From assembly GCA_902812405.1 (NCBI GenBank), contig CADDZI010000008.1, forward strand, positions 1 through 56,129: a DNA stretch of 56,129 nucleotides, written 5' to 3'. Position numbers and translations under genes: made by a program. This stretch comes from a bacterium. Its GTDB lineage: Bacteria > Vulcanimicrobiota > Vulcanimicrobiia > Eremiobacterales > Eremiobacteraceae. Below, one piece after another: positions 10,571-56,128 of the stretch (position 1 is its first letter; the number at the start of each line of letters is the position of its first letter). The notes under the pieces are model-generated. The model worked only from the letters and a program-made list of their open reading frames with translations. It searched no databases and was not told the DNA's origin.

Positions 10571-10789
10571 TACCGCCGGTTCAACATTCCTATGCGCTAC
10601 GTTCCAGCCCTGCAACGCGCTCCCGTCAGGTGGTTGCCTCAGATCGACCTCCGGCGCCGTTGTCGAAGGAACCAATCACTGCTTGCTGCAAGCCGGTGCG
10701 CTCTTCCCTGGGGACTGTTGACGCGGAACCCGCGGTGCGCGAAAGGTGTCGATGAGCTGTGTGCCGTCCATCACCGCCCGTTCGTCCAG

Positions 10790-44625: not shown

Positions 44626-45498
44626 ATGCCAAGCATGCCGGAAGAAGCATTCGGAAAGTCTTCTCATCTTCTCGCGGGACACCCGGATACCCCCGAAAAG
44701 GCCTCTTTTTGCCTCTACGACATACGCCAGATGAGAAGCCGGCGTGACAGCCTCGCCGAGCTGCGGCATGAGGTTGCACGCGGCAGCGTCTTGCAGGCCC
44801 CGCACGGTTGGACTACCGGCATTCCTGTCGTGGACGCCATGCTGGGGGACGCCGGCATTCCTGCCGGACGCTTGACCGAGATCTTCGGGCGCGGGTCCTG
44901 CGGGCAGACGAGTCTGGCCTATGCGCTGCTGGCAGGGTGTACGCAGACCGGCAACCTCGGCGCACTGCTTGATCCGGCCGGCGAGTTTTTCGCACCGGCA
45001 GCCGAAACGGCGGGTATCGTCGTGAGCCGGCTTATCGTCGTACGACCCGACTCGCCGGCCGCCTATCGTCATGCTCTGGATACCATCCTGCGTAGCGGCG
45101 CGTGTGCGATCGTCGTGGCGGGCGGCATCACGCCCGAGGTGCTCCCGGGACGGCATTGTGTACGGTTGTTGGGAGCGGCGTGTAAAAACGGTACCGCGTT
45201 TGTGGCACTCTCGGACGGTACGCATCCGGATCTGGCAGCCTACGCTTCGCTGCGCATCCATGCCGGCGGCATCCAGCCGCTGTGGGCGAGCGGTGCCGAC
45301 GCCGGACCGTGTCTGCGCGGATACGACGTTGCGTTGCGGATCGTGAAATCCAAAGTCGGTGCTCGGCTCGGGGAGTGTACTTTTGAAGCAACAGCAATCG
45401 ATGCTGGGCGATGGTGGCCGGTTGCGCATGCACACCAGGCAGGATGGGTCGCCCACCCTCCGGCACGCCAGGATGCCAGGCATGCGCTACAGTCGTAA
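44626..45498 (+). CDS. imuA: ImuA, RecA-like SOS mutagenesis protein
   Basis: About 290 residues from ATG 44626; TTG 44608 and ATG 44635 are alternatives. It has a RecA/SulA-like core starting GWTTGIPVVDAMLGDAGIPA, then GRLTEIFGRGSCGQTSLAYA. The Walker A lysine is replaced by Gln (GSCGQTS), so ATP binding is doubtful. A Walker B-like strand VRPDSPAAYRH follows. ImuA works with ImuB and DnaE2 in error-prone bypass of DNA lesions. It is the first gene behind the LexA-box promoter, and its end overlaps imuB. Confidence 0.88.
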   Translation: MPSMPEEAFGKSSHLLAGHPDTPEKASFCLYDIRQMRSRRDSLAELRHEVARGSVLQAPHGWTTGIPVVDAMLGDAGIPAGRLTEIFGRGSCGQTSLAYALLAGCTQTGNLGALLDPAGEFFAPAAETAGIVVSRLIVVRPDSPAAYRHALDTILRSGACAIVVAGGITPEVLPGRHCVRLLGAACKNGTAFVALSDGTHPDLAAYASLRIHAGGIQPLWASGADAGPCLRGYDVALRIVKSKVGARLGECTFEATAIDAGRWWPVAHAHQAGWVAHPPARQDARHALQS

Positions 45499-47107
45499 AC
45501 GGCGGGATGCTCTGACGACGTTTGGCGCCGCGCATCGGCGGCGGCGCATTGCGTGTTGTGTCGTGGCCGACTTTCCGGCTGCGATCTACGTCCGCGACAA
45601 TCCGGCTCTGGCCACGGCAGCGCTGGCCGTGGTGGAGGCCGGCGTCGTCGTCGCCACGTGGCGCGTCGCCGAGTCCGCGCTCACCGGCATGACGGAGGCA
45701 CGCGCCCGCAGCGCATATTCCGGACTGCACGTCGTGCCGCGTAACGAGGCACGCGAACAGGCTGCGGAATGCGAGCTGCTGGCGGCCCTGGAGCAGCATG
45801 CGCCGGTGATCGAGGTGTCTGGACCGGGAGAGTACCTGTATGACATGGCGGGCATGCCTGCGGGGGAGGCCGGTGCGCTGAGCGCGGCTCTGGAGACGCT
45901 GCGCGGTTTGGGGTATTCGCGGGTCCGCGGCGGAGTAGCGGATGATGCGTTCACCGCCCGCTGCGCTGCACTGATGGGAGATGGGTGCACGATCGTGGCG
46001 GCGGGCGAGGGGGCCGCGTTTTTGGAGCCCTTGCCGGTCACCCTATTACCGCTGCAGGAGGAGGAGGCGGCATGTTTGGCCATGCTCGGCGTGCACACCC
46101 TGGGGGATCTTGCCCGCCTTCCCGAGGCGGCGGTGGCCGCGCGTTTCGGCGAACGCGCCCGCTTCTACGTTCGGCTTGCGCGTGCGCGCGACGCAACCCC
46201 CCTGCAGCCGCGGCCGGCGCCGGTCTGCTACGAGGAGCGGTACGCGTTCGAACCTGCGGTGGACAACCTGGAGCCGGTCCTCTTCGGCGTGCGCCGCTGT
46301 ATCCAGGCCGTTGCGGCACGTTTGGCGGGCGCATCGCAGACGTGCCGGGCGTTCGACCTTCTCGTCGAGGTTGCGGCGGAGCCGAGCGGTCCGCCTGCGG
46401 GGGCTGAAGCGGAGCACGTCGCCGCCGGTTGTGCGATGCACACCTGCACCGATACGGCGCCCGGAACGCAGACGATCGCTCAGGCTGGGAACGTGCGGAC
46501 ACTCACCGTGCGATGTGCCGAACCGACCTCCTGCACCGCGACGATGTTTGCATTGGCACGGGCTGCACTGGAGTCCCAGGCGCATCCGGGCAGCGTCGAA
46601 GCGGTGGGCGTACGCGTGACGCCGGCGGTCGATCCCGTGCCGCAATTGGGGCTGTTCAACGGCGTACGCGGTCCACAGCCCGCCGCGGTGGGCATCATGC
46701 TGACGCATCTGCGCGCCTTGGGTGCAGCCGGCGCCATGAGGTTTCGCGTTTGCCGGCAGCGCTCGCGGTTACCGGAACGGATGCAGACGATCTTACCCCT
46801 TGCTCACCCCGAGGAGTGCCTTGCGGCGCTGCATGCCGGGCAAACGCCGCGCGGGGAGGAGGTACCGCGTCCGGCATGCGCGAGCGGATGGCCGTTGCCG
46901 GTGTTACGCTTGGTGCACCCTCCGCGCCCCATGCCGCCGCCCAAGCGCAGCACCCTGTGTGCCGGACCGTTTCGCATCAGTGAGCGGTGGTGGGATGTGC
47001 CGGCCGACCGGGACTACTACCAGTGCTGGGATGTCGGGAACAGTCTGGTGCTGGCCTTTTACGACCTGCGCGGCCGCACCTGGTACGTGCAAGGCATTTT
47101 CGATTGA
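45482..47107 (+). CDS. imuB: ImuB, catalytically inactive Y-family polymerase-like protein
   Basis: About 541 residues; starts at 45473 or 45482 are both possible, and both overlap the imuA end. The N-terminal Y-family fold is visible (CCVVADFPAAIYVRDNPALA), but the catalytic S-x-D-E motif is replaced by VSGPGEYLYDMAG. This is the known loss in ImuB. LGVHTLGDLARLPEAAVAAR is the helix-hairpin-helix and the C-terminus ends RTWYVQGIFD. ImuB scaffolds ImuA, DnaE2 and the sliding clamp (QLGLF near residue 405 is a candidate clamp-binding motif). Confidence 0.9.
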   Translation: MRYSRKRRDALTTFGAAHRRRRIACCVVADFPAAIYVRDNPALATAALAVVEAGVVVATWRVAESALTGMTEARARSAYSGLHVVPRNEAREQAAECELLAALEQHAPVIEVSGPGEYLYDMAGMPAGEAGALSAALETLRGLGYSRVRGGVADDAFTARCAALMGDGCTIVAAGEGAAFLEPLPVTLLPLQEEEAACLAMLGVHTLGDLARLPEAAVAARFGERARFYVRLARARDATPLQPRPAPVCYEERYAFEPAVDNLEPVLFGVRRCIQAVAARLAGASQTCRAFDLLVEVAAEPSGPPAGAEAEHVAAGCAMHTCTDTAPGTQTIAQAGNVRTLTVRCAEPTSCTATMFALARAALESQAHPGSVEAVGVRVTPAVDPVPQLGLFNGVRGPQPAAVGIMLTHLRALGAAGAMRFRVCRQRSRLPERMQTILPLAHPEECLAALHAGQTPRGEEVPRPACASGWPLPVLRLVHPPRPMPPPKRSTLCAGPFRISERWWDVPADRDYYQCWDVGNSLVLAFYDLRGRTWYVQGIFD

Positions 47108-47119
47108 CGCAGGATTGCG

Positions 47120-50100
47120 ATGCAACCCCGGTATGCCGAATTACACGCACACTCGAACTTTACGTTCCTGGACGGCGGCTCGCATCCCGAAGAACTGGTG
47201 CGGCGTGCCCGGGAGCTGGGGATCGAGGCCATTGCGCTGACCGACCGTGACGGCCTGTATGGAGCGGTCCGCTTTGCACAGGCTGGACGGGACGAGGGCG
47301 TCGCTGCGCTGGTAGGTGCCGAACTCACCTTGGAGGATGATACTCACCTCATCGTTGTGGTCGAGGATGCCCGCGGCTATGCACATCTCTCGCGCATCAT
47401 CAGCCGCGCCCGCCTGAGCTCGCCGCGGGGGGCGCCGGCGACGACGTATGAGTGTCTGGCGGCACATGCCCAAGGTCTCATCGCCTTGTCGGGGTGCGCG
47501 GCGGGTGCGGTGGCACGCGCCTTGGAGAGCGGCGACCTGCGCCGGGCACGCGCCGCAGCCGGCCGCCTGCGCGAGATCTTCGGACGCGAGAATTTTTGGA
47601 TCGAACTGCAGCGGCATTTCCTGCCCGAGGACGGGCCCCGCATCCGGGCGCTGGCCGGTCTGGCGCAGGATCTCGACCTGGGTCTCGTGGCGACCGGCGG
47701 CGTCCACTACGCCGTGCCCGAGCATCGCGATCTGGCTGATGTTCTGACCTGCATCCGCCACCACACGACGCTGGAGAACGCCGGAACGCTTCTGCGCCCC
47801 AACGGCGAGTACTATCTGCGGTCTCCGCGTGCGATGGCGCGCCTGTTTGGCGACCATCCGGAAGCGGTTGCCAACAGCGTCCGGTTGGCGGAGCGCTGCC
47901 GCTTCCGGCTGGAGAAACAGCCGGGGCAATTTCCGGATTTTCCGGTGCCCGACGGCGAAACGCCATTCTCCTATTTGTCGGCGCTTGTCGACGAAGGGGT
48001 GCGGCGCCGCTACCGCCCGCCGACGCCGGCGGTGCAGGCGCAGGTTGCGCACGAGCTGGCGGTTATCGCCAAGCTGGACTTGGCGGGTTACTTCCTCATC
48101 GTCTGGGACATCGTGCGGTTTGCACGTAAAAACGGCATCCTCGTGCAGGGCCGCGGGTCGGCCGCCAATTCCGTGGTCTGCTATGCGTTGGGGATCACGA
48201 GCGTGGACCCGATCGGACTCCATCTCCTCTTCGAGCGCTTTCTCTCCGAGGAGCGTGACGAGCCGCCGGATATCGACCTCGACACTCCCTCCGGCGAGCA
48301 GCGTGAACGCATCCTGCAGTACGTGTACGACCGGTACGGACGCGACCACGCCGCCTTGGTGGCTGAAGTGATCACCTACTGCGCGCGCAACGCGGTGCGC
48401 GACATCGGAAAAGTTCTGGGTCTGCCCGACGACACCGTCCGCGAGCTGGCGGATTCGCTGGAGGCGCATGCCGCGAGCCGGGCGGCCGACGAACTGACGC
48501 ACAGCGCCGCCTCGGGGGATGCCACGGCGCAGCTGACGGCGCACGGCGAGTGGCGGCCGGTGCGCGCCGCCGAGGTCGAAAAGGTGTTGGCCGCAACGGC
48601 GGTAGGACATCGCGTCGAGGACGCCACGCTGCAACGCCTGGCGGCCCTGTGCCGTCGCATTGACGGGTTTCCGCGTCACCTAAGCCAGCACGTCGGCGGT
48701 ATGGTCATCACCCGTTCGCCCCTCATTGAGGTCGCGCCGCTGGAGCCGGCGGCAATGCCGGGCCGGACGATCCTGTGCTGGGACAAGGATGATTGCGCTG
48801 CCCTGGGGCTGATCAAGATCGATATCTTGGGTTTGGGCATGCTCAATGCGATTGCGGAGGCGACGGCGATGATCGAACGCAGCCGCGGTATCCGGATCGA
48901 GCCAGCCGATATGCGTCTGTGCAACGATGAACGGGTGTATGAGATGCTGTGTGCGGCGGATACGGTGGGTGTCTTCCAGGTCGAATCGCGCGCCCAGATG
49001 GCGACCTTGCCGCGGCTGCGTCCACGCTGCTTCTACGATCTCGTCGTCCAAGTCGCCATCATCCGGCCGGGCCCCATCCAGGGCGATATGGTGCACCCCT
49101 ACCTGCGCCGCCGGCAGGGGCGGGAACCGGTCACCTACCTGCATCCGCGCCTGCAACCGGTCCTGGAACGGACGCTGGGCGTTCCTCTCTTCCAGGAGCA
49201 AGGCATGCGCATGGCGATTGCCGCAGCCGGGTTCACGGCCAGCGAGGCCGACGAATTGCGGCGCGCCATGGGTCACAAGCGATCGCGGGAGAAGATGGAA
49301 CGTCTGCGCAGCCGATTGCTGGCCGGCATGGCGCGCAACGGGATCGAACCGCAGGTGGCTCGGCGGCTGTTCGACATGCTGAGCGCCTTTGCCGATTTCG
49401 GCTTCCCGGAATCGCACGCCGCGTCGTTTGCCCTGCTCGTCTACCTGTCGGCCTACCTCAAGCGCTTCTACGCCCCGGAATTCTACGCCGCTCTGCTCAA
49501 CGCGCAACCCATGGGCTTCTATGCGCCGGCCACGCTGATTGCCGACGCCCGGCGGCACAACGTGACCGTGCTGCCTCCGGACGTCAATGCGTCGCGCTAT
49601 GCCTGCACGGTCGAGCCGCTGGCCGCCGGTGCGGGTACGGCACCGGCGCCGGATGGGGCCTGTTCCTGGTCGCATCCGACGGCTCTGCGCATCGGGCTGC
49701 GCTACGTGCGCGGCGTGGGCGAGACGTACCGGGAGCGGCTGGACGGCGAACGTGCGCGGGGGCCGTATGCCGACCTGCGCGACTTCGTGCTGCGGACGCG
49801 TCTGCCGAAACAGTGCCTTCTCTGGCTTGCGGCGTCGGGTGCGTTTGGATGTTTCGGCATGACGCGCCGCGATGCGCTTTGGGAGGTGCAGCGTTTGGCG
49901 GGGGTCGCCCTTGCGGGCGAGCTGGAGCGACAGATGGACGTTTGCGAACCGCCTGTCCGGGTCCCGGCGATGACGCCGCTCGACGAAGCTGCGGCCGACT
50001 ATCGCGTCCTGGGATTATCGCCCCGCTACCACGTGCTCGAGTTTTGCCGGGCTGCGCTGGATGCGCGCGGCGTCTACCGGGCGTGCGATCTGGCTGCGCT

Positions 50101-50392
50101 CCCCAACGGGCGGATCCTCGCGGTGGCCGGACTCGTCACCGTGCGCCAGCGTCCGGGAACGGCCAAGGGTTTCGTGTTCACGACGCTGGAAGACGAAACC
50201 GGCTTGATCAACGTCATCATCCGGCCGGACGTCTATGCGCGGTATCGCCGTCTCGTGCGCAATGAACCGGCTGTCATCGTCGAAGGCCGCCTGCAGAAAG
50301 CCGATAGCGGGGTATCGCTGCTCGCGCGACGTATGTGGCGCCTGGAGAACGCAGCGCTGGCGGCGCATGTCACGTCGCGCGATTTTCATTGA
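47120..50392 (+). CDS. dnaE2: Error-prone DNA polymerase DnaE2
   Basis: 1090 residues. It has an N-terminal PHP domain (YAELHAHSNFTFLDGGSHPE), polymerase catalytic acids in EPPDIDLDTPSGEQ (about residues 381-394), QGRGSAANSVVCYALGITSV, FQVESRAQMATLPRLRPRCF and a C-terminal OB domain (RILAVAGLVTVRQRPGTAKG). It is a C-family polymerase lacking a proofreading partner and carries out mutagenic synthesis across lesions. It follows imuB by 12 bases under the LexA-box promoter. Confidence 0.96.
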   Translation: MQPRYAELHAHSNFTFLDGGSHPEELVRRARELGIEAIALTDRDGLYGAVRFAQAGRDEGVAALVGAELTLEDDTHLIVVVEDARGYAHLSRIISRARLSSPRGAPATTYECLAAHAQGLIALSGCAAGAVARALESGDLRRARAAAGRLREIFGRENFWIELQRHFLPEDGPRIRALAGLAQDLDLGLVATGGVHYAVPEHRDLADVLTCIRHHTTLENAGTLLRPNGEYYLRSPRAMARLFGDHPEAVANSVRLAERCRFRLEKQPGQFPDFPVPDGETPFSYLSALVDEGVRRRYRPPTPAVQAQVAHELAVIAKLDLAGYFLIVWDIVRFARKNGILVQGRGSAANSVVCYALGITSVDPIGLHLLFERFLSEERDEPPDIDLDTPSGEQRERILQYVYDRYGRDHAALVAEVITYCARNAVRDIGKVLGLPDDTVRELADSLEAHAASRAADELTHSAASGDATAQLTAHGEWRPVRAAEVEKVLAATAVGHRVEDATLQRLAALCRRIDGFPRHLSQHVGGMVITRSPLIEVAPLEPAAMPGRTILCWDKDDCAALGLIKIDILGLGMLNAIAEATAMIERSRGIRIEPADMRLCNDERVYEMLCAADTVGVFQVESRAQMATLPRLRPRCFYDLVVQVAIIRPGPIQGDMVHPYLRRRQGREPVTYLHPRLQPVLERTLGVPLFQEQGMRMAIAAAGFTASEADELRRAMGHKRSREKMERLRSRLLAGMARNGIEPQVARRLFDMLSAFADFGFPESHAASFALLVYLSAYLKRFYAPEFYAALLNAQPMGFYAPATLIADARRHNVTVLPPDVNASRYACTVEPLAAGAGTAPAPDGACSWSHPTALRIGLRYVRGVGETYRERLDGERARGPYADLRDFVLRTRLPKQCLLWLAASGAFGCFGMTRRDALWEVQRLAGVALAGELERQMDVCEPPVRVPAMTPLDEAAADYRVLGLSPRYHVLEFCRAALDARGVYRACDLAALPNGRILAVAGLVTVRQRPGTAKGFVFTTLEDETGLINVIIRPDVYARYRRLVRNEPAVIVEGRLQKADSGVSLLARRMWRLENAALAAHVTSRDFH

Positions 50393-53388: not shown

Positions 53389-53904
53389 TTACCACGGGGA
53401 AGGATCGATCAGAGTGCCGGTGAGGAGATCCAGCCGAATGGTGGCGGACCGACTGGCGTCGCGGGACACGAGGGTGAGGACCAAGATGCCATGTTGCGTC
53501 ACCGGGGATCCGGCCACGAGATACTGGGCGCTGCCGTTGCTGGCAAACAGCAACGGCGTGTGAGGGTCGAGCGGGCCGTCCAACCTGACGCCGGTGAAGG
53601 TGCGATGGATGAGGAGACGGCCCAGGGTGGATTGGGGATCCGCCCAGCGCGGGCGCCCGAGGTAGCCGTCGTAGGTCAGAGGATCGACAGACTCGATGAT
53701 GAGTGAAGCACCCTGGCGGCCGTCTGCGTTCTGTGCGGCGCGCGACAGCCAGGCGACGTCGGCTGCAAGGGTGATCGCCGCGTCGCGGGATGCCCGTGAG
53801 GCCGCGTACTGCCGGTAGGCGGGAATCGCCAAGCCTGCCATGAGAAGGCCAAGGATGCCGACAGCAGTCAACGTTTCCAGCAGCGTGGCGCCGCGCGAGC
53901 TCAT
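53389..53904 (-). CDS. Type IV prepilin-like protein (GspH/PilE type)
   Basis: 171 residues. The class III leader is very short (SSRG), cut before ATLLETLTAVGILGLLMAGL, with Glu5 of the mature protein present as in pilins. The rest is a small beta-rich globular domain (VDPLTYDGYLGRPRWADPQS). It is likely a minor pilin or pseudopilin processed by PilD. The ATG overlaps the stop of the preceding PilX-like gene (ATGA). Confidence 0.85.
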   Translation of the reverse strand: MSSRGATLLETLTAVGILGLLMAGLAIPAYRQYAASRASRDAAITLAADVAWLSRAAQNADGRQGASLIIESVDPLTYDGYLGRPRWADPQSTLGRLLIHRTFTGVRLDGPLDPHTPLLFASNGSAQYLVAGSPVTQHGILVLTLVSRDASRSATIRLDLLTGTLIDPSPW

Positions 53905-54704
53905 GGCAGAATGCCGCCCGCTCCGGCGTTGCCGTCGTACCAGGTCTGCGAACGGAAGTTGTCGGCCGAGGCCGGGGAACCCGACCCCGAGCGGACGCGC
54001 GCGAAAATGCGCAGATCGGTGGCCGCCGGCCCGCCCACCTGGCCCGCGGGATCACCGGGCGAGTCGGGTTCTTCCAGTCCACCCCCGTCGATTTCCCCGA
54101 CGATCTCGGAGTAGGGCGCCAGGTGATGAAAGGTGCGCAGCAGGGTCGTGACGGTGCGGGCGGCAACCGGGGTGCCGTTGACGATGACGGTCGCAGCTGC
54201 GGTGACCTGCACCGGCTGTTCGGCGATGACCGGGTTTTCCTGCAAGTTGATGTCAAGGTGATCCGACTGCGGGGATGTGCCGGGTAACGCAAGACTCACC
54301 CGAACGTCGGCCGAGGTCTGCCGGTCCAATCTGAAGCGCAGGGTACTGTGCGCCGCCGCGAGGTCCAGCAGGACCGCTTGCAGGTCTCCGGCATGTTGCG
54401 CGAAGAGAGCACGCACCCAGGCCGCTCCGGCATCCGCTGCGGCCGTCGCCTGTAGGGAGCGTGCCTCCTCGAGAGCTTTGCGCATGCGGACGGTGCCGAC
54501 GTCGACAACCACAGCGACGAGCGCGGCCAGCAAAAGAATGGCAAAGAGAGTTGCAATCAAGGCGATGCCTCTGTGGGTGCCGTGATCGTGATGCAAAGAG
54601 CCGCCCGTCCTCAAAGCGCGTACGTCAGCGGCCGTCCGAGGCCCTACAGACTGTGTTGCCCCCCGCGCCGGCCGATATCCAACCCGCATGGACGCAGCGT
54701 TCAT
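53901..54704 (-). CDS. PilX/PulK-like minor pilin component
   Basis: 267 residues, starting by ATGA overlap with the upstream fusion gene. A 45-residue leader ends at HRG, followed by the hydrophobic helix IALIATLFAILLLAALVAVV, as in PilX and related minor pilins that lack Glu5. A long helix follows (MRKALEEARSLQATAAADAG), then a large beta domain (LHLAPYSEIVGEIDGGG region near residue 205). It is probably part of the tip or initiation complex of a type IV pilus. The long leader is unusual and the true start may be internal. Confidence 0.75.
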   Translation of the reverse strand: MNAASMRVGYRPARGATQSVGPRTAADVRALRTGGSLHHDHGTHRGIALIATLFAILLLAALVAVVVDVGTVRMRKALEEARSLQATAAADAGAAWVRALFAQHAGDLQAVLLDLAAAHSTLRFRLDRQTSADVRVSLALPGTSPQSDHLDINLQENPVIAEQPVQVTAAATVIVNGTPVAARTVTTLLRTFHHLAPYSEIVGEIDGGGLEEPDSPGDPAGQVGGPAATDLRIFARVRSGSGSPASADNFRSQTWYDGNAGAGGILP

Positions 54705-56128
54705 GGAAGGGGGCTTGCGGATACCGGCTGGGGCGGCGTGACCGGCGGTCCGACCATCGTGATCGCCTGCGCCAGGCTGGTGCCCGCCGCATCCGCGACG
54801 CGAACCTGAAGTTGGAACAGATCTGCGGTGAAGGACGGCATGACGTCAACCTCAACGGCGAACCCCTCGATGCGGGTGGAGAGCGTCTGCGGCTCGATGT
54901 GCGTGCCGTACGCCAACGCGGCCTCTTCGTCGACCAAGACGTTATGGGCCACCTGGACGGCATTTTCATGGCGGGCGGCTACCCGTTCGGCGTGCGCCGC
55001 CGCGACGAGGGCTGGCAGAAGCGCCCCCACGGCGACCAGCGCAAACAACGCCGTGGCGATCACGGATTCGATGAGTGTGAATCCGGCCAGAGACGAGCGG
55101 CGCGTCGGATTGGGCCGGGCCGGAAAGCGGCGCGCCACAATGACGGCACGAGGAACGTCGGGGTGCGTGATGCGCAAAAAAGCCGCCGAACGCTGGACGA
55201 GAACGCGGCGGTTGAAGAACGCGGCCCCCACGCGGTACGTCCGCCCGTCGAACACAAGCAACCCCTCGGGCGATACGAAGACCGTGATGCCGACATCTCG
55301 CCAGCCACGGGGATCCTCCGCTACGAACTCGCACAGACGCTCGATCCAGAGATCGCGACGCAGCCACAAGACCAGCAGCAAACCGGCGCCGAAAAAGAGC
55401 GCAAGCCACGTCAGCCGGTGCCGTGCAAGTGCGCCGGCCGACGGCCACAGGGGCGCGGCTGCCGTCGCCGGGGATGAGCGGTTACCCAAGACTGACTGGG
55501 GAGCGGGTGCCACAGGCGCCGCGTGCAGCGCGGGTTGCACCTCGTAGCGCTCGACGAGAAAGGAGGCGACGGGAGCGCCCCCCACGAGGCGGACAATGGA
55601 CGTGGGCAGGAGGACACCGGCGATTGTCCGCCACCCGGCGTAGGCAAAAGATACTCCCGCCGTCGATTCGTCGTCCGCAATACCCGCGACGGCATCGCCG
55701 CCGGGTACGAAGAAGACGCGAAAGCCGGCATCCGCGATCCACTCACCGGCTTGGGGGCCCGCCGTCAGATGCGTCCGAGCCGCCTGACCAAGGACAGCCA
55801 GCCATGAATTGACCAGCTCGTCGGGCATCAGAGGGTCGTCAACGTAGAGAGTCTGGCCTGCGTTTCGGATCCAGGACCGGTCACCCGACAGGTGTACCGC
55901 CAGCGATCCCTCATCGGTTTCTTCGAGCGTCCAACCGTGGTCGTCGGCGGTGAAGACACCGTTGACGGCATGCCGGTCGTCCTGGGTGGCACGAGCGACA
56001 TACGCAATCCGGCCGCGGAAAGACTGCAAGGTCGTCCACAGCGCCGGTACGTCGGCCGCCTGCGCGAGGCACGGCGCGGCGGCAAGCATAAGCGTCAAAA
56101 ACGCCGCACAGAAGGGGCGTCCGCGCAA
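54701..56128 (-). CDS. Fusion: exported LolA-like domain, membrane helix and internal type IV prepilin
   Basis: 475 residues, possibly continuing beyond the window (the first codon seen is TTG). Order: a signal peptide (residues 1-25, FLTLMLAAAPCLAQA); a LolA/LppX-like beta domain (about 26-200, DHGWTLEETDEGSLAVHLSG); a membrane helix (240-257, WLALFFGAGLLLVLWL); a small domain (260-330, GITVFVSPEGLLVFDGRTYR); then a prepilin signal at 349-354, AG followed by FTLIES, with the pilin helix and a PilV-like domain to the end. An internal GTG at 55138 would yield a normal 19-residue prepilin leader. Confidence 0.75.
   Translation of the reverse strand: MRGRPFCAAFLTLMLAAAPCLAQAADVPALWTTLQSFRGRIAYVARATQDDRHAVNGVFTADDHGWTLEETDEGSLAVHLSGDRSWIRNAGQTLYVDDPLMPDELVNSWLAVLGQAARTHLTAGPQAGEWIADAGFRVFFVPGGDAVAGIADDESTAGVSFAYAGWRTIAGVLLPTSIVRLVGGAPVASFLVERYEVQPALHAAPVAPAPQSVLGNRSSPATAAAPLWPSAGALARHRLTWLALFFGAGLLLVLWLRRDLWIERLCEFVAEDPRGWRDVGITVFVSPEGLLVFDGRTYRVGAAFFNRRVLVQRSAAFLRITHPDVPRAVIVARRFPARPNPTRRSSLAGFTLIESVIATALFALVAVGALLPALVAAAHAERVAARHENAVQVAHNVLVDEEAALAYGTHIEPQTLSTRIEGFAVEVDVMPSFTADLFQLQVRVADAAGTSLAQAITMVGPPVTPPQPVSASPLP

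Follow-up and report, generated by a model that had tools for sequence, protein, structure and literature searches.

A conserved fusion with a prepilin cleavage motif between a LolA-like envelope part and a GspI-like minor pilin

Searches for prepilin peptidase substrates usually look for a motif close to the N-terminus, and internal sites escape them by design. The question raised here is what such a motif does in the middle of an apparently exported membrane protein, and whether it is cut there. The protein is encoded at the edge of the window, which is the whole stretch of DNA analysed (56,129 nucleotides, one whole contig from a member of the Eremiobacteraceae). Its minus-strand frame (56128-54701; residue-coding positions 54704-56128) comprises 475 codons without a stop in the ORF translation. 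The start codon, TTG, lies one base inside the contig edge, and the true start may lie beyond this edge, leaving the frame incomplete by a few codons. A signal peptide, a beta domain, a membrane helix, a domain of about 81 residues, a basic linker, a prepilin motif and a GspI/XcpV-like minor pilin follow one another along the chain:

56057..56128, minus strand: Sec-type signal peptide, residues 1-24 (hydrophobic stretch 5-25; start codon uncertain at the contig edge)
55529..56053, minus strand: predicted LolA/LolB/RseB-like periplasmic beta domain, residues 26-200 (AlphaFold2 pLDDT ~90 and Foldseek)
55361..55438, minus strand: membrane helix, residues 231-256 (helix in both predicted models; hydropathy; N-out/C-in by the positive-inside rule)
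55124..55360, minus strand: predicted cytoplasmic beta domain, residues 257-335, ~81 in length (identical spacing in 14/14 family proteins)
55082..55123, minus strand: basic disordered linker, residues 336-349, its last residue being the Gly at -1 (pLDDT below 50; net charge +2 to +5)
55067..55084, minus strand: class III prepilin cleavage motif G349/FTLIE354, the slash marking the site (Pfam N_methyl and per-position conservation)
54704..55081, minus strand: GspI/XcpV-like minor pilin, residues 350-475 (predicted lollipop fold; Foldseek pseudopilin matches; TIGR01707 gspI in 4/14)

This domain order had been proposed in a sequence-only reading of the DNA; conservation, the predicted structure and the pattern of charges all support it. 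The same reading took the frame to be uninterrupted and stated beforehand that a stop missed between two genes, or their joining by the assembly, would refute it. Two genes could be joined by such a missed stop, or by a sequencing or assembly error; the contig ends at the frame's 5' end, and long frames arise by chance in GC-rich genomes. However, a search of 101 genomes found the full-length, co-linear fusion without a stop in 14/14 family genomes from nine genera, at 31-42% identity to the window protein. Purifying selection is evident on either side of the join: in all pairs tested, dN/dS stays under 1 for each of three segments, namely the periplasmic part, the helix with its cytoplasmic domain, and the pilin. 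An artefact is thus exceedingly improbable and, as judged from these comparisons, the fusion is genuine.

The alignment has further regularities. A signal-peptide-like stretch opens the protein in all 13 relatives, and there is no length change whatsoever from the helix through the end of the cytoplasmic domain in 14/14. The linker ranges from 13 to 24 residues without ever leaving the frame, and its net charge is positive in every protein (+2 to +5); substitutions between related pairs mark it as the fastest-evolving segment of the fusion. Distances calculated for the N-terminal part and for the pilin correlate (r=0.89, Mantel p 0.0001), which is consistent with joint inheritance of the two halves.

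By sequence search, the upstream part occurs in this family only. It was not found in 149 genomes of other families of the phylum, where a single match with E 0.006 was treated as noise. Because of this restriction, the function of the upstream part cannot be borrowed from characterised relatives. Weak pilin relatives elsewhere in the phylum are separate genes with ordinary short leaders. Stops noted inside the first matches from other families were set aside, since on inspection these were mostly ordinary short-leader pilins.

The prepilin motif lies at residues 349-354, as first read, with Gly349 at -1, Phe350 at +1 and Glu354 at +5, and it matches Pfam N_methyl at cut-off (21.2 bits, residues 348-370). 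The pattern [G/A]-[F/L]-[T/S]-L-[I/V]-[E/D] fits all 14 family proteins: position -1 is G in 13 and A in one, +3 is L throughout, and +5 is E in 13 and D in one. Conservation in the family excludes a chance motif. Like other class III pilins, these proteins have G or A at -1, a hydrophobic stretch of ~21 residues and usually E at +5. The motif is not N-terminal, however, with just a hydrophilic leader ahead of it; 349 residues, among them a signal peptide and a membrane helix, precede it. For this reason, the protein is classed as a variant, with a pilin domain inside a fusion, rather than as an ordinary prepilin.

The surroundings of the motif bear on whether it is cut. The linker is unconserved until about six residues ahead of the site, where Arg is frequent, and across the aligned sequences its only conserved part is the cleavage motif. 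A conserved motif in a variable linker is the pattern expected from selection for cutting. Residues 337-350 are also predicted to be disordered (AlphaFold2 pLDDT below 50). Alternatively, the chain might never be cut, the pilin helix then acting as a permanent anchor and the protein sitting in the membrane beneath the pilus, as a fixed platform or a subunit that limits length. A conserved fusion also fits one working protein, and PilD might be impeded by the large folded bulk ahead of the site. In one relative (L026), unlike the others, position -1 is A and position +5 is D, which likewise counts against cutting. But an anchor needs neither Gly/Ala at -1 nor the whole motif conserved beside a variable linker; the linker is, moreover, predicted to be disordered, and a permanently uncut chain is doubtful. 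Several ordinary prepilins of the window's genome apparently have Ala before the site, as in RAFT and RAYT (L045, L044, L046/L048; contigs C50, C19, C14). These leaders ending in Ala make the Ala at -1 of L026 less odd.

An internal start was the other possibility raised from the sequence. In this case, the frame would encode nested products: the full protein plus a short-leader prepilin initiated, for example, at GTG 55138. In the window, this in-frame GTG stands 18 codons ahead of the site, a distance typical of leaders, and some start codon occurs nearby in most relatives. However, no start codon position is conserved, and most relatives have no start codon at the position of the GTG itself. 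Within the linker, pairs from the same genus have no start codon in common, and three relatives (L028, L029 and L032) have no ATG, GTG or TTG within 25 codons of the site. GTG 55138 is also not preceded by a Shine-Dalgarno-like motif, a weak point since the starts of full genes often lack a clear one too. This codon is accordingly disfavoured as a start, and nested products are unlikely.

A full-length chain that is cut at Gly349 must present the site on the proper side of the membrane. For prepilin peptidases, this is the cytoplasmic side, where they cut close to the membrane (PMC10191384). Hydropathy reveals three hydrophobic segments in the fusion: the signal peptide, residues 238-257 and the pilin helix. 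The middle helix is flanked by 4-6 Lys/Arg on its C-terminal side and 0-3 on its N-terminal side in 14/14. The predicted topology is therefore out-in-out, with the N-terminal part outside, domain 257-335 and the cleavage site inside, and the pilin head outside. Such an arrangement would put the site where prepilin peptidases act; the claim that a single upstream helix brings it into the cytoplasm gains support from both the flanking charges and the hydropathy.

The upstream part was characterised mainly by its predicted structure. AlphaFold2 was run on the 14-sequence alignment and returned a mean pLDDT of 77.9 with a pTM of 0.43, so that the relative placement of domains is unreliable. The first domain of the model adopts the half-barrel beta fold of LolA, LolB and RseB, and its best PDB matches are LolB, the LolA superfamily and RseB (Foldseek E ~1e-5 to 1e-3). 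The LolA-like domain originally claimed is thus borne out by fold alone, as the sequence of the N-terminal part has no match in Pfam or PDB. 'LolA-like' describes the modelled fold and not a function. Unlike LolA, LolB and RseB, the fusion's domain is tethered to a membrane helix, a cytoplasmic domain and a pilin.

The domain at residues 257-335, first described as unknown, still has no confident relative by PDB sequence or Pfam searches. A Mu-transposase C-terminal barrel was considered, but Mu-transpos_C_2 matched below cut-off and in only 3/14, and it was not relied on. In two genomes of genus g5, the helix and cytoplasmic domain also stand alone elsewhere on the chromosome, in a paralogue (L022/L023) that ends shortly after the domain and has no pilin. 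The cytoplasmic domain may thus function with no pilin attached, and a chain that ends at the linker seems to be tolerated. Because such paralogues stop right after the domain, an upstream product ending there is plausible. The upstream part could, on the other hand, be only a chaperone-like long leader that is degraded after the cut, just as ordinary prepilin leaders are thrown away. Its purifying selection (dN/dS ~0.1-0.4, with invariant residues retained) and the separate existence of helix and cytoplasmic domain in genus g5 make a discarded leader very unlikely. Stand-alone paralogues with the helix and 81-residue domain are found in L023 and at L037 11328-12029 (minus strand). The latter adjoins cupredoxin and metallopeptidase genes, and no pilin genes were seen nearby.

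The half behind the motif was claimed simply as a pilin, and this assignment can be refined. AlphaFold2 predicts the lollipop shape of the pilin superfamily, a long N-terminal helix (residues 352-406, 55 residues) with a beta-sheet head (four strands within 414-459). The top pilin matches by structure are the XcpGHIJK pseudopilus model (9a1f_R) and the XcpV/XcpW complex (5bw0), with weak E values of 0.009-0.2 at a Foldseek probability of 1.00. The curated GspI, GspJ and ComGE models all score below their cut-offs. TIGR01707 gspI is found in 4/14 family members, and the window pilin itself reaches 14.3 bits against a gspI cut-off of 44.35, so it is called GspI-like only. In a named genome collection, one locus encodes a proteobacterial pilin with 37% identity, as a separate gene with its own short leader. 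The frames downstream of it, read by eye, resemble GspJ, GspK, GspL, a secretin and an ATPase, so this relative looks to be in a T2SS-type operon. The pilin half is best called a GspI-like minor pilin.

The operon context of the fusion points to a set of minor pilins. Two genes follow it:

53901..54704, minus strand: GspK-like minor pilin, directly after the fusion, which it overlaps by ATGA (NCBIfam NF037980 T2SS_GspK, E 8e-4, below cut-off)
53389..53904, minus strand: FimT/GspH-like prepilin, the third gene (ATGA overlap; weak N_methyl)

The GspK-like gene adjoins the fusion in 14/14 family genomes, and the FimT/GspH-like gene is present in 13/14, the contig of the fourteenth (L025) ending first. 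The fusion is therefore the first gene of a conserved operon that encodes three minor pilins, of the I-K-H type. It resembles GspI/XcpV in its predicted pilin fold, though weakly by E value, in weak gspI and ComGE matches, and in its GspK-like and FimT/GspH-like neighbours. In contrast to GspI systems, no GspJ-like gene was seen in the fusion operon, and whereas GspI itself has a short leader, the fusion has a 349-residue stretch ahead of its site, with both a signal peptide and a membrane-spanning helix.

These features are probably best explained by an out-in-out precursor that PilD cuts in the cytoplasm into a membrane-anchored carrier- or sensor-like protein and a tip-nucleating pilin. The signal peptide would export the LolA/LolB/RseB-like domain, and the first membrane helix would stop transfer, leaving the ~81-residue domain and basic linker in the cytoplasm. 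The pilin helix would then re-enter the inner membrane with its head outside, and prepilin peptidase would cut behind Gly349 on the cytoplasmic face. One product would stay anchored in the membrane, its LolA-like side facing the periplasm and its other side the cytoplasm. The other, the mature GspI-like minor pilin, would nucleate the pilus tip together with the operon's GspK-like and FimT/GspH-like proteins. XcpV (GspI) of P. aeruginosa nucleates the pseudopilus tip (PMC6211770). Fusion may tie the tip nucleator one-to-one to an envelope protein, or keep it inactive until cut. The frame, its conservation, the predicted fold, the topology signals and the operon are what the analysis shows, whereas the cutting, and the stability and role of the first product, are inferred.

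One precursor with two products agrees in part with the sequence-only reading, which had a cut releasing an exported lipocarrier-like protein and a pilin. Conservation, predicted structure and charge pattern support two products. A free exported carrier would not result, because the upstream product would keep the membrane helix and the cytoplasmic domain. Our search of the open-access literature found no precedent for a folded, membrane-spanning prepilin leader of ~350 residues.

Pilins fused to unrelated functional domains, such as PilB of Streptococcus sanguinis, are themselves known. More than 1,200 such modular proteins in 264 architectures have been surveyed (PMC8179133). That survey sought an N-terminal class III signal with the module behind the pilin, whereas in the fusion the module comes before the cleavage site. 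No report of an internal prepilin site, or of a module-before-pilin order, was found in the open-access literature. Prepilin peptidase might, more tentatively, act here as a polyprotein protease whose mid-chain cut gives two lasting products and couples pilus initiation one-to-one to the state of the envelope. If cutting occurs as proposed, a leader that is long, folded and spans the membrane is within the reach of prepilin peptidase, and this conserved case would offer a natural handle on the initiation and control of pilus tip assembly.

Other pilus components are encoded in the genome, in keeping with the proposed precursor. There is one PilD-type peptidase (contig C20, from position 10761; an A24_N_bact match with CxxC motifs and GxGD), and the window's genome also has five T2SSE-type ATPase matches, T2SSF-type platform protein matches on two contigs and one secretin. 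Prepilin motifs match 12 times in the genome, fusion included, and wherever a start could be recognised, the other leaders inspected are short. At L038 4836-7019, a T2SSE pilus extension ATPase carries an N-terminal PilZ domain and an MshEN domain in one chain (Pfam), and a similar 707-aa protein is encoded in the window's genome (L071 53-2176, contig C86). This PilZ-MshEN-T2SSE chain suggests direct c-di-GMP control of pilus extension. Near the pilin operon, window positions 45359-50392 hold a mutagenesis cassette that is kept in many relatives. It consists, as named from sequence, of a gene for a DnaE2-like error-prone DNA polymerase alpha subunit, preceded by an ImuB-like gene.
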